A stretch of 64,000 nucleotides of DNA from an uncultured Bacteroidales bacterium (GTDB taxonomy: Bacteria; Bacteroidota; Bacteroidia; Bacteroidales; UBA932), in contig CALVDG010000001.1 of the NCBI GenBank assembly GCA_944326255.1, positions 1 to 64,000 of the forward strand, given 5' to 3'. The notes below the pieces were generated by a model that was not told the origin of the DNA, made no database searches, and saw only the letters and a list, made by a program, of their open reading frames with translations. The stretch's first letter is position 1, and the number at the start of each line of letters is the position of its first letter. A program made the translations under genes and the position numbers. This document shows positions 3,938 through 11,836 of this stretch, one piece after another.

Positions 3938-5041
3938 ATGAACATACTGAGTACATTTAAAGTAAGACTCCTGGACAGGTATATCATAAGGAAGTTCATC
4001 GGAACGTTCTTTGTTGCCCTGCTGCTTATCATCGTGATAGTGATAATCTTCGATATAAGCGAGAAGATAGATGACTTCGTGGATAAAGAGGCACCTCTGA
4101 GGGCGATTGTAGTGGATTACTACTTCAATTTCATCCCGTACTTCGTCAATATGTTCAGTCCGCTGTTCGTCTTCATCACCGTTATATTCTTCACCTCAAA
4201 ACTGGCCGGCAACAGCGAGATCATAGCCATGCTCTCCGGTGGAGTAAGCTTCGGCAGGCTGATGTATCCATACTTCCTGTCCGCCTTGTTGATTGCACTT
4301 ATGAGTCTGTCGCTCAACTTGTTCGTGATACCGAACGCAAATGAGAAACGGCTTGCTTTCGAGGAACAGTATATCAGGGGGCAGAAGTTCTACAATACCA
4401 AGCGTAACATACATTATCAGATTGCGCCCGGGGAATTTGTATACGTAGAGTCGTTCAGCACGTGGAACAATACTGCCTACAAGTTTACTCTGGAAACCAC
4501 CAAGGACAGCCATCTGCTCTCCAAACTCTCGGCTGAGAGCGCGGCCTGGGATTCTACCAAAGGAGGATGGCGACTGAAGAATTATACTCTCAGGGACTAC
4601 ACCACCTCGCAGCAGACGATAACTTTCGGAAAGCAGCTGGATACCGTCATCAGTCTTAAACTGGATGATTTTTACCGGAGGGAGAATACTGTGGAAACTC
4701 TCAATTACGATGAGCTGCAGAGTCTTATAGACATGCAGAAGATGCGCGGGGACAGTATGGTCAAATATTCCCTTATCGAGAAGCACACCCGTTTCGCAGT
4801 GCCGTTTTCCGCATTTATCCTTACCCTTATAGGAGTGTCGCTTTCTTCCAAGAAACGGCGTGGAGGCATAGGACTCAATCTTGGGGTGGGTATCGCATTG
4901 AGCTTTTCGTATATCCTTTTTCTGCGTTTCAGCCAGATGTTCGTGATTACCGATACTCTCCCGCCATGGCTGGCCATGTGGCTGCCCAATATCCTGTATG
5001 CAGTGGTTGCGGCAGTCCTTTACCGCATGGCTCCGAAATAA
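3938..5041 (+). CDS. LptF/LptG (YjgP/YjgQ) family permease
   Basis: A 367-residue inner-membrane permease of the LPS export ABC transporter LptB2FG, which extracts lipopolysaccharide from the inner membrane. The architecture is the family's usual one: three N-terminal membrane segments (about residues 17-40, 60-85, 105-127), a periplasmic jellyroll domain of roughly 140 residues, and three C-terminal membrane segments (about 285-305, 312-335, 342-362). The length matches LptF-type members. A second, longer family member is fused to Fmt at 7736. Assignment to LptF rather than LptG is not certain. It is 11 bases downstream of tgt. Confidence 0.9.
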   Translation: MNILSTFKVRLLDRYIIRKFIGTFFVALLLIIVIVIIFDISEKIDDFVDKEAPLRAIVVDYYFNFIPYFVNMFSPLFVFITVIFFTSKLAGNSEIIAMLSGGVSFGRLMYPYFLSALLIALMSLSLNLFVIPNANEKRLAFEEQYIRGQKFYNTKRNIHYQIAPGEFVYVESFSTWNNTAYKFTLETTKDSHLLSKLSAESAAWDSTKGGWRLKNYTLRDYTTSQQTITFGKQLDTVISLKLDDFYRRENTVETLNYDELQSLIDMQKMRGDSMVKYSLIEKHTRFAVPFSAFILTLIGVSLSSKKRRGGIGLNLGVGIALSFSYILFLRFSQMFVITDTLPPWLAMWLPNILYAVVAAVLYRMAPK

Positions 5042-7735: not shown

Positions 7736-10171
7736 ATGAAGAAACTCGACCTTTTCATACTCAAGTCTTTTCTGGGACCGTTCGTGATGACGTTCTTCAT
7801 CACCGTATTCATACTGGTGATGCAGTTCCTGTGGCTTTACATCGACGAACTGGTGGGCAAGGGTCTGAGTTTCTGGGTCATCATGGAGTTCCTGGGCTGG
7901 GGCTCGGCGACCATCCTGCCGCTCTCCATGCCGCTGGCCACTCTGCTGGCCTCCATCATGACATTCGGCAACCTTGGAGAGAACAACGAACTGCTGGCCA
8001 TGAAGGCTGCCGGAATCTCCCTTCAGAGGATATTCCTCCCGCTGATATTCGTGGCATTTGCCATCAGCGTGGCGGCATTTTTCGTGTCCAACAACCTTAT
8101 ACCGCTGGCATACAATAAGATCTATACCCTGCAGTACGACATTGCCCGGACCAAGGACGAGATAAAGATACCGACCGGTACATTCTACAACGGTATTGAC
8201 GGTTATTCCCTCAGAGTCAACTCCAACAACAAGGAAACCGGCATGATGTACGATGTGATGATCTACAATCACACCAAGAACAAGGGCAATATATCTCTGG
8301 CTGTTGCTGACTCAGGTATGATACGCTCCACGCCCGACAAGAAGGCCCTGGTGTTTACTCTGTACCACGGAGTCTCATACGAGGAGGACAATACCAGAAC
8401 GGCCCGTGACACATCCTATGTCCTTCAGCAGGTGGACTTCGAGATGCAGGAGATAGTCATAGCCCTGGAGAACTATGCTTTTCAGAAGTCGGAAGAGACC
8501 AGATACGGCAATGATATCATGGCCAGGAATCTGCAGCAACTTCGGGGGGACAGGGATTCGTTGGGACGCCTGTATGACTCTACGGCTGCGGTTCAGAGGA
8601 AAGAGGTAGTCTACGATTTGAGCATGAGATCAGCCAAGCAGCTGGATACGGCAAAGAATAAAGATCTGGACAGTGCTGCCAATTTCCCTTTGGATACGCT
8701 GAAGTGGGATGATACTCAGCGGGAGCTTAAGGCTGTCGAAGACGCTATAAATTCAGTTCAAAAAGCGATTCAGACTATGAAAGGGTATGACCGTGAGGTT
8801 CTTCAGTATACTTTTTATCTCAGGAGGATAGACCTGGAGTATCTAAGGAAGTTTACGTTGTCCTTCGCATGTTTCATATTTTTCTTCATAGGGGCTCCTC
8901 TGGGTGCTATTATCCGCAAGGGCGGACTGGGCACTCCTGTGATAGTGTCCGCACTGTTCTTCGTACTGTACTGGGTGGTAGATATATCAGGCAAGAAGCT
9001 GGCCAGGGACGGTGTCATATCTCCGGAACTGGGAGCATTCATATCTTCCCTGGTACTGTTGCCCATAGGCGTGTTCCTTACGTGGAAATCCACCAAGGAT
9101 TCCTCTATCTTCAATATAGAGACCTATATCCTGCCGGTTAAGAAATTTTTTGCCAAAATGTTCGGAAGTAAGAAGAAACGCAGTGCGGGTTCTACGGACG
9201 GAGCCCTCAGCCGTGGCCGCAAGGCCGGTATAGTGTTCATGGGTACGCCTGAATTTGCCGTGGAGTCATTGAAGGCGTTGGTGGAGGGCGGATACAATGT
9301 TCTGGGCGTGGTGACTGTCCCTGACCGTAAGATCGGCAGGGGGCAGAAGGTAGGCTGCAGTCCGGTGAAGCAGTATGCCGAGGAGCATTCCCTGCCACTG
9401 CTGCAGCCGGAGTCTCTCAAGGATTCCGATTTCCTGAAGGAGCTGGAGACTTTCGAAGCCGACCTGTTCGTCGTAGTGGCATTCAGGATGCTGCCCAAGG
9501 TTGTCTGGTCCATGCCCCGTCTGGGCACATTCAATCTCCATGCCTCCCTGCTCCCCGCTTACCGCGGAGCGGCCCCCATCAACTGGGCGGTAATCAACGG
9601 GGAGACGCGGACCGGAGTGACTACGTTCCTGCTGGACGAGCATATGGATACGGGCTCTATTCTGTTTCAGGAAGAGGAGGAGATACTGCCTGAGGATAAT
9701 GTGGGCAGGCTTTATGACCGTCTGATGGTCAGGGGAGCGGCTTTGGTGCTCAGGACTGTAGATGCACTGATCAGTGGTACTGCGGAGCCGAGGCCGCAGG
9801 ATACTTCGTCGCTTGCGCCGGAGAGGATGTCCGCGCCGAAGCTGAGCCGTCAGACAGGGGAGATAGACTGGACTATCAGTGCGGAACGGATACATAATCT
9901 GGTGCGCGGTCTGGCTCCGAAGCCGGGTGCTCACGGCCTACTGCATATGGGAGATCAGGAACTGGAACTTAAAATCTATGATACTGAGATTATAAGCGGG
10001 GACGGTCTTCCTGAGGAGTTTGTCAACTCCGCTCCGGGTGTCGTATATACAGATCACAAGTCCCTGCTCGCGGTTCGTTGCGGCGAGGGAATATTGTCTG
10101 TAAAGGAACTTCAGGCTCCCGGTAAAAAGATGATGCCTGCGTCCAGTTTCCTGGCAGGATGGAGGGGATAG
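7736..10171 (+). CDS. fmt: LptG-type permease fused in frame to methionyl-tRNA formyltransferase
   Basis: An uninterrupted 811-codon frame encodes two unrelated proteins. Residues 1 to about 460 are a YjgP/YjgQ permease: three N-terminal membrane helices, a long charged periplasmic insert (about 125-370), and three C-terminal helices (about 374-448). A basic linker (about 474-498, with KKKR and Ser/Gly) leads into residues 499-811, a complete methionyl-tRNA formyltransferase. This has IVFMGTPEFA, the signature SLLPAYRGAAP, and the catalytic triad Asn600, His602 and Asp638, with the same 38-residue Asn-to-Asp spacing as E. coli. The permease C-terminus is cytoplasmic in this family, so the topology fits a tethered Fmt. 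An in-frame ATG at 9158 (Met475) could also yield free Fmt. A missed stop codon from sequencing error is the main alternative. Confidence 0.85.
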   Translation: MKKLDLFILKSFLGPFVMTFFITVFILVMQFLWLYIDELVGKGLSFWVIMEFLGWGSATILPLSMPLATLLASIMTFGNLGENNELLAMKAAGISLQRIFLPLIFVAFAISVAAFFVSNNLIPLAYNKIYTLQYDIARTKDEIKIPTGTFYNGIDGYSLRVNSNNKETGMMYDVMIYNHTKNKGNISLAVADSGMIRSTPDKKALVFTLYHGVSYEEDNTRTARDTSYVLQQVDFEMQEIVIALENYAFQKSEETRYGNDIMARNLQQLRGDRDSLGRLYDSTAAVQRKEVVYDLSMRSAKQLDTAKNKDLDSAANFPLDTLKWDDTQRELKAVEDAINSVQKAIQTMKGYDREVLQYTFYLRRIDLEYLRKFTLSFACFIFFFIGAPLGAIIRKGGLGTPVIVSALFFVLYWVVDISGKKLARDGVISPELGAFISSLVLLPIGVFLTWKSTKDSSIFNIETYILPVKKFFAKMFGSKKKRSAGSTDGALSRGRKAGIVFMGTPEFAVESLKALVEGGYNVLGVVTVPDRKIGRGQKVGCSPVKQYAEEHSLPLLQPESLKDSDFLKELETFEADLFVVVAFRMLPKVVWSMPRLGTFNLHASLLPAYRGAAPINWAVINGETRTGVTTFLLDEHMDTGSILFQEEEEILPEDNVGRLYDRLMVRGAALVLRTVDALISGTAEPRPQDTSSLAPERMSAPKLSRQTGEIDWTISAERIHNLVRGLAPKPGAHGLLHMGDQELELKIYDTEIISGDGLPEEFVNSAPGVVYTDHKSLLAVRCGEGILSVKELQAPGKKMMPASSFLAGWRG

Positions 10172-10175
10172 GGGG

Positions 10176-10883
10176 ATGAGGCCGTCTGTTTCTTATGCTA
10201 TATTGTGTGACGGGGATTTTCCCGGGAAAGCCGAGGTCAGGGACTGCCTCCTCTCCTGTGACGTGGTGGTCTGCTGCGACGGTGCCGCGGCCTCTTTCAT
10301 GAGATTCCGGAGGCCGGAATTTGTGGTAGGGGATATGGACTCGTTGCCAGAGGATGTCAGGGATGAACTTTCCGACCAGCTGTTTCATATAGGGGAACAG
10401 GAGAGTAATGATCTCTCCAAGGCTTTCCGGTGCGTCTGTGCCCTGCTCAGGACAGGCTCAGGCAGGCACATTCCGGAATTTTCCATAACGGTATTCGGCG
10501 CTACCGGCAAGCGCGAGGACCACACGCTCGGCAATATATCGCTTCTGGCCGACTTCGCGCAGTATCTGTCCGCTTGCGGGACCCCCGGGCGGCTTTCCAT
10601 GATGACTGATTACGGTCTGTTCGTACCGGTGCTGGACTCATGTGCGTTCAGCCTCCCTGCCGGCCAGCCGGTCTCCATATTTGCCTTTGACCAGACCCTC
10701 AGGATAGACAGCACCGGACTGGAATATCCTACTGGGGATGTCAGGTTCGATATGTGGTGGAAGGCTACGTTGAACAGGGCTTCAGGCGGCAGGGTGGAGC
10801 TCAGGCTCAGTCATCCGGCCAAAGCACTGATGTATCTGCCCGGATGGCACGGCAGAAGACTTGAGACGGAGACATTGCTATGA
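10176..10883 (+). CDS. thiN: Thiamine pyrophosphokinase
   Basis: A 235-residue cytoplasmic kinase that converts thiamine to thiamine pyrophosphate with ATP. Family hallmarks are the acidic motifs CCDGAAASF and VVGDMDSLPED in the N-terminal catalytic domain and the FGATGKREDHTLGN stretch that binds the pyrophosphate group. The C-terminal third is the small beta-rich thiamine-binding domain. It lies four bases after the permease-Fmt fusion and overlaps the next gene by ATGA, so it is not in the riboswitch-controlled thi operon at 28891-32242 but completes the same pathway. Confidence 0.9.
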   Translation: MRPSVSYAILCDGDFPGKAEVRDCLLSCDVVVCCDGAAASFMRFRRPEFVVGDMDSLPEDVRDELSDQLFHIGEQESNDLSKAFRCVCALLRTGSGRHIPEFSITVFGATGKREDHTLGNISLLADFAQYLSACGTPGRLSMMTDYGLFVPVLDSCAFSLPAGQPVSIFAFDQTLRIDSTGLEYPTGDVRFDMWWKATLNRASGGRVELRLSHPAKALMYLPGWHGRRLETETLL

Positions 10884-11836
10884 TGCGTTTTCTCAAGGAC
10901 TGGACTCTTCCGATTGCCATGGCTGCGGGTGCCGGCGGATATTTTCTGTTTCACTATGCCGGTTTTCTCGCACCCCTTAAACCTGCGGTATGGGTGGCGG
11001 TGGATATCCTGACACCGTCGCTGATTTTCATACAGCTTTTTCTGACTTTCTGCAAGATAGACCTGAAGGACCTGCGTCTGACGAAGTGGCACTGGATCAT
11101 ACTGGCTTTTCAGGCCGTATCCGCGCTGGTTATGGCGGCCGTGCTGATATTGGTGCCGATGAATGAGGTCTACCGGGAGATATTCGAGGGGGCGATGGTA
11201 TGTCTGATATGCCCGACCGCCACAGCCGCTGCAGTCGTCACGGACAAACTGGGTGGCAGTGCTGCGCGCATTACGCTTTATAACCTCATGTCCAATATTC
11301 TGGCGGCGGTCTTCGTGCCCGTTGTCTTTCCATTGATTGAGGTTCATTCCGAAATGGGATTCTTCCCGGCATTTCTGAAGATTCTCTCAAAGGTCTTTCC
11401 GCTGCTGATATGTCCTTTCCTGCTGGCTGTGTTGCTCAAGTACATCTGGCCCAAGGCCCATGATTTCTTCAAGGCCCGTGCGGGCATCGCGTTCTATCTT
11501 TGGGCGGTGGCTCTCGCGCTCGCTATCGGACAGACAGTGCGCTCCATGCACAACAGCACGGCTCCCGCAGCTGTCCTGTGGATGATAGCAGGCGCGGCTT
11601 TGCTGACCTGCATAGTTCAGTTCTGGTTCGGAAAGCGTACCGGCAAGGCTTTGGGAGATACCATTACCGCCGGTCAGGCTCTTGGACAGAAAAACAGTGT
11701 CCTGGCCATCTGGATGGCATATACCTATCTTAATCCCGTATCATCCCTCGCTCCAGGAACCTATGCCGTCTGGCAGAATATTTTCAACTCCTGGCAGCTC
11801 TGGCGGAAAAATCACAGGGATTGTCCCGAAAAATAG
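10880..11836 (+). CDS. Bile acid:sodium symporter (BASS) family transporter
   Basis: A 318-residue integral membrane protein with about nine or ten hydrophobic helices spread over its whole length. The resemblance to BASS-family carriers is in the central CPTATAAAVVT segment and the C-terminal stretch QNSVLAIWMAYTYLNP-type region followed by a proline-rich loop, which form the crossed-helix sodium and substrate site. The substrate is unknown; organic anions are usual. The ATGA overlap with thiN suggests translational coupling, and location next to thiN raises the possibility of a thiamine-related substrate, but that is only context. Confidence 0.7.
   Translation: MMRFLKDWTLPIAMAAGAGGYFLFHYAGFLAPLKPAVWVAVDILTPSLIFIQLFLTFCKIDLKDLRLTKWHWIILAFQAVSALVMAAVLILVPMNEVYREIFEGAMVCLICPTATAAAVVTDKLGGSAARITLYNLMSNILAAVFVPVVFPLIEVHSEMGFFPAFLKILSKVFPLLICPFLLAVLLKYIWPKAHDFFKARAGIAFYLWAVALALAIGQTVRSMHNSTAPAAVLWMIAGAALLTCIVQFWFGKRTGKALGDTITAGQALGQKNSVLAIWMAYTYLNPVSSLAPGTYAVWQNIFNSWQLWRKNHRDCPEK

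Follow-up and report, generated by a model that had tools for sequence, protein, structure and literature searches.

A gene joining an LptF/LptG-family permease to methionyl-tRNA formyltransferase, fixed in Candidatus Coprenecus and present in further genera of its family

The window analysed here is the whole stretch of 64,000 nucleotides from an uncultured Bacteroidales bacterium, whose genus is Candidatus Coprenecus (NCBI: Bacteroidales, Rikenellaceae incertae sedis). It carries, in a row of genes read in a single direction (tgt, a second LptF/LptG-family permease, alaS, the fused gene and thiamine pyrophosphokinase), a single frame of 811 codons at 7736-10171 on the + strand with no internal stop. 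The features of this locus, with the supporting evidence in parentheses, are as follows.

3938..5041, + strand: second, unfused LptF/LptG-family permease, upstream of alaS and in the same direction
7736..10171, + strand: fused ORF of 811 aa, LptF/LptG-family permease plus methionyl-tRNA formyltransferase (Fmt) (Pfam, NCBIfam; open in relatives)
7757..9088, + strand: LptF_LptG permease domain, residues 8-451 (Pfam; AlphaFold2 helices and strands)
9101..9229, + strand: linker, residues 456-498, with a conserved permease tail (456-474) and then a low-confidence tether (dN/dS, pLDDT)
9140..9160, + strand: AAG AAA TTT TTT GCC AAA ATG, nucleotide-conserved and unstructured, ending at the candidate internal start Met475 (9158) (conservation rank, folding z)
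9230..10168, + strand: complete Fmt, residues 499-811, with N600, H602, D638 and the GRG loop (Pfam, NCBIfam, 1fmt alignment)

Immediately 3' of the thiamine pyrophosphokinase gene, an ORF of 318 aa with hydrophobic stretches (10880-11836) gave no Pfam match at E 1e-10.

A preliminary description of this DNA had proposed an in-frame fusion of a permease and Fmt, and the proposal stands, the stop-free frame containing Pfam domains in both halves: LptF_LptG at residues 8-451 (E 2.9e-74), Formyl_trans_N at residues 499-670 (E 5.1e-36) and Formyl_trans_C at residues 702-808 (E 9.1e-23), with a linker of about 43 residues between the permease and Fmt domains. In the AlphaFold2 model (44 sequences) both domains were confident, Fmt mostly above 90, while the linker stayed below pLDDT 50 at residues 456-495 and pTM was 0.44, suggesting two bodies on a flexible tether. 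Since the C-terminus of LptF and LptG is cytoplasmic, the Fmt of the fusion would by analogy be located on the correct side of the membrane. The motif G[ST]TDGxLSR at residues 485-493 (9188-9214) is kept in most Coprenecus species within an otherwise variable linker, and may serve for cleavage or docking.

The permease half is of full length, its match to PF03739 spanning positions 3-353 of the 353 in the profile (250.7 bits), and its predicted helices are consistent with six TM segments plus a periplasmic beta domain. The coupling-helix residue Glu85 is invariant across 98 loci. The 'LptG-type' label given to it at first was not borne out by the NCBIfam models, in which the score for LptF (147.8, cut-off 230) exceeds that for LptG (TIGR04408; 105.9, cut-off 240) and neither reaches its cut-off. 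Because LptF outscores LptG and the other permease (3938-5041) leans to LptG, we refer to the fused permease as LptF/LptG-family and not as LptG; by score it appears to resemble LptF slightly more than LptG. The genome of the window and the complete genomes of fused relatives carry two LptF_LptG genes, one of them inside the fusion, and in one genome of 80% completeness (G100) the fused permease is the only LptF_LptG match. We take the permease half to be, most likely, one of the two membrane-spanning subunits of LptB2FG, the LPS exporter.

The Fmt half passes the fmt equivalog model TIGR00460 of NCBIfam (243.4 bits, cut-off 201.5) and can be aligned end to end with E. coli Fmt (PDB 1fmt), N600, H602 and D638 being the counterparts of the active-site Asn, His and Asp. 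These three residues are unchanged in 98 of 98 relatives (54 fused and 44 separate loci), and the complete Fmt with intact Asn600, His602 and Asp638 of the preliminary description is confirmed by Pfam, by TIGR00460 and by the alignment with 1fmt. A single Formyl_trans_C domain, located in the fusion, was detected in the genome of the window itself and in each complete fused relative, and the domain search found no second Fmt in the complete genomes checked. Since the genome also encodes a deformylase and no second Fmt was found, formylation of the initiator Met-tRNA is likely to be carried out by the Fmt half.

Relatives were searched for the domain pair, the genomes compared being mostly metagenome-assembled (MAGs). 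Of the 18 other Candidatus Coprenecus species, 17 have the fused frame at full length without a stop, the single member that lacks it being an MAG of 81% completeness. Related bacteria with the fusion are mostly uncultured and of gut type. The fused frame was also found in eight more genera of the family, g3 (one of three), g4, g6, g15, g16, g17, g47 and g48 (one of two examined), and the genes are separate in the remaining genera of the family sample, giving 54 fused versus 44 separate loci in the family and outgroups together. The possibility raised beforehand, that all close relatives would carry two separate adjacent genes, is therefore contradicted: the fused protein is genuine and fixed in the genus, and neither chance nor sequencing error accounts for its frame. 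Outside the family, no full-length fusion was detected in samples of about 387 other Bacteroidales and about 394 Bacteroidota genomes, where a very divergent one could miss the thresholds. The statement that no characterised protein of this architecture was known to its author agrees with our search, since no description of a permease-Fmt fusion was found in the literature searched.

In the outgroups the two genes lie side by side, many pairs overlapping or having tens of bases between them, and separate genes are therefore the ancestral state. In family members with separate genes the frames either overlap or are parted by a gap that is mostly under 90 bp, though it amounts to about 1.2 kb in g7 and g8. 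Three genomes, G148, G117 and G128 (loci L107, L108 and L109), carry permease and Fmt in frame with a lone TAA between them; these loci are one substitution short of fusion and may be a case of readthrough. On a tree built from both domains with the linker excluded, the fused loci fall into Coprenecus with g3 (G020), g4/g6/g15/g16, g17/g47 and g48 (G100), and the separate or fused state changes at least four times, at least three of these changes being forced by starred branches. A common origin of the three main fused groups as one clade was rejected by the AU test (lnL lower by 81.6, p-AU 4.5e-5), and the fusion must therefore have arisen more than once or been undone. Repeated independent fusion is the most economical reading, some fissions being possible, as reversal is not distinguishable on every branch; the loss of a stop or a small indel between the neighbouring genes probably produced the fusions. 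The length of the linker varies among the fused groups.

Both halves are under purifying selection, with dN/dS far below 1, and the linker gave values of 0.07-0.28 in most pairs and 0.98 in a single pair of closely related species that differ by five changes in the linker. The dS values of the permease and Fmt halves are unequal in some species pairs (0.61 versus 0.16 for L001/L004 and 1.62 versus 0.27 for L001/L006), a sharp contrast suggesting homologous recombination with a breakpoint close to the join.

The join is constrained at the RNA level in Coprenecus. Of 18 species, 16 have an ATG in the linker past the conserved tail of the permease; because L006 and L018 carry no ATG in this part of the linker, free Fmt is not required in every species of the genus. 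The predicted mRNA fold of the 40 nt around the linker ATG (about -2 kcal/mol) is close to that of the true fmt starts of relatives (-1.5) and far from that of internal ATGs (-8.3). Against synonymous shuffles the folding z is +1.8 in the window and +2.0 on average in the genus, so that the unstructured stretch is not explained by the amino acids, and none of 138 internal ATGs of the permease part reached z +2.0. Just upstream of the ATG, the sequence AAG AAA TTT TTT GC employs minor codons (AAA 25%, TTT 26%), the conservation of which ranks first among 814 five-codon windows of the gene; this evidence depends on the measure, as only the codon-usage-weighted score picked out the linker, which ranks 57 of 804 by a simple identical-codon score. 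In L006 the T-run and the ATG are both lost, which fits the two belonging together.

Bacteroidota lack Shine-Dalgarno sequences; their initiation is determined in part by weak mRNA structure around the start, and A at -3 and -6 is favourable (PMC6847099). The favourable A residues are only partly present at the linker ATG, with A at -3 in the window and T at -3 in about half of the other species. The position of Met475 (9158) had been given correctly, and the suggestion of internal initiation there gains plausibility at the RNA level from the unstructured, conserved stretch; Coprenecus probably makes free Fmt besides the fusion.

The other fused groups differ at this site. In nine fused genes of g4, g15 and g16, the segment from permease residue 455 to the first Fmt strand contains no ATG, GTG or TTG, and for this reason those species probably produce Fmt in fused form only; in g15 and g16 there is no low-structure valley at the join. 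Coprenecus and g4/g15/g16 may thus represent two stages of commitment to the fusion. In g17 and g47 a weaker unstructured stretch lies at the beginning of Fmt, with mixed start codons. Three g17 loci (L023, L088 and L096) carry a GTG two codons ahead of the first Fmt strand that would give MKIVYMGTPEF, an N-terminus like that of native Fmt, with a weakly unstructured stretch.

The explanation that we consider probable is that a permease subunit of LptB2FG tethers the sole Fmt of the cell, that neighbouring genes fused recurrently, and that the tether is tolerated. A flexible tail of about 30-45 residues would hold a catalytically complete Fmt at the cytoplasmic C-terminus of the permease, both halves being presumably active. 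As the complete genomes checked yielded no further Fmt, the tethered enzyme would supply the whole cell with formylated initiator Met-tRNA. The former start region of Fmt would persist within the fused frame of Coprenecus, yielding some free Fmt (about 37 kDa) beside the fusion of about 90 kDa, and several species of g4, g15 and g16, without such a start, would hold Fmt solely as the fusion. The tether is probably no new pathway, and a dedicated coupling function seems to be absent.

It is unlikely, in our estimate, that the fusion was selected for function, placing fMet-tRNA synthesis and initiation at the inner membrane or coupling them to the state of LPS export through the permease. The recurrence of the fusion, its retention through radiations of genera, the purifying selection on part of the linker and the species without a standard start codon for free Fmt agree with such selection, but the tether is disordered with no fixed contact predicted by AlphaFold2, many sister genera lack the fusion, Coprenecus seems to retain its own Fmt start, and gene neighbourhood by itself predisposes to fusion. 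The data do not support a functional reason for placing fMet-tRNA synthesis on the LPS exporter, the neighbourhood of the two genes being long-standing and the fusion recurring in the family; initiation may be specifically coupled to LPS export, and nothing in the data requires it.

We regard as improbable, too, that the frame is only formal and that mainly two proteins are made, through internal initiation combined with slippage on the A3T6 run, or through proteolytic cleavage in the linker. The unstructured, nucleotide-conserved AAGAAATTTTTTGC with the ATG in 12 of 14 core Coprenecus species agrees with it, as do the conserved TDGxLSR motif and, in the 'KLSM' species, a +1 frame that ends at a TGA overlapping the linker ATG. 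Without a programmed event or cleavage, however, the permease has no end before Fmt, and nine g4/g15/g16 genes offer no linker start. Programmed frameshifting at the T6 run, a weak slippery sequence, was itself set aside and kept as a minor rival, since the -1 frame has no conserved stop, and only some members of the genus have a +1 stop that overlaps the ATG. That the locus is an assembly or sequencing artefact or is decaying, as the metagenomic source of most genomes might suggest, is hardly conceivable, because the in-frame join is equally open in 53 complete loci of nine genera from many independent assemblies, dN/dS is well below 1 in both domains and the active site is invariant.

Returning to recurrent fusion with a tolerated tether, the fusion is more general than the window alone could show. 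We propose tentatively, as an idea that may well prove wrong, that membrane-tethered Fmt evolved repeatedly, with one gene giving both an exporter subunit that bears Fmt and free Fmt from a start retained in the frame, and with some lineages having gone on to obligate fusion; if so, both the amount and the location of initiator-tRNA formylation would be tied to the LPS exporter. Fmt is a near-universal enzyme of bacterial initiation, known as a free protein, and the attachment of the sole Fmt to a component of LPS export, several times, challenges the view that it must diffuse freely. The loci also offer a natural series for the formation and fixation of a fusion, from separate genes through genes parted by one stop and a fusion with a retained start to the obligate fusion.

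Among known systems, the fused protein shares with LptF/LptG permeases (PF03739; 6mit, 6mjp, 8frl) the membrane helices, the periplasmic beta domain, the coupling-helix Glu and its status as one of two genome copies, but it bears a C-terminal extension of about 350 residues holding Fmt, and the curated cut-offs do not name it LptF or LptG. With known Fmt (TIGR00460; E. coli 1fmt and 2fmt) it shares both Fmt domains, the N/H/D site, the GRG loop and the position of the only Fmt in the genome, whereas known Fmts are free soluble proteins and this one makes up the C-terminal portion of a membrane protein. ArnA, the bifunctional formyltransferase/decarboxylase of lipid A modification, likewise pairs a formyltransferase of that fold with a second domain, also in an envelope setting; ArnA, however, is soluble and acts on a UDP-sugar, while the domain described here is by score a true Fmt (243 bits with the fmt model versus 134 with the ArnA model).
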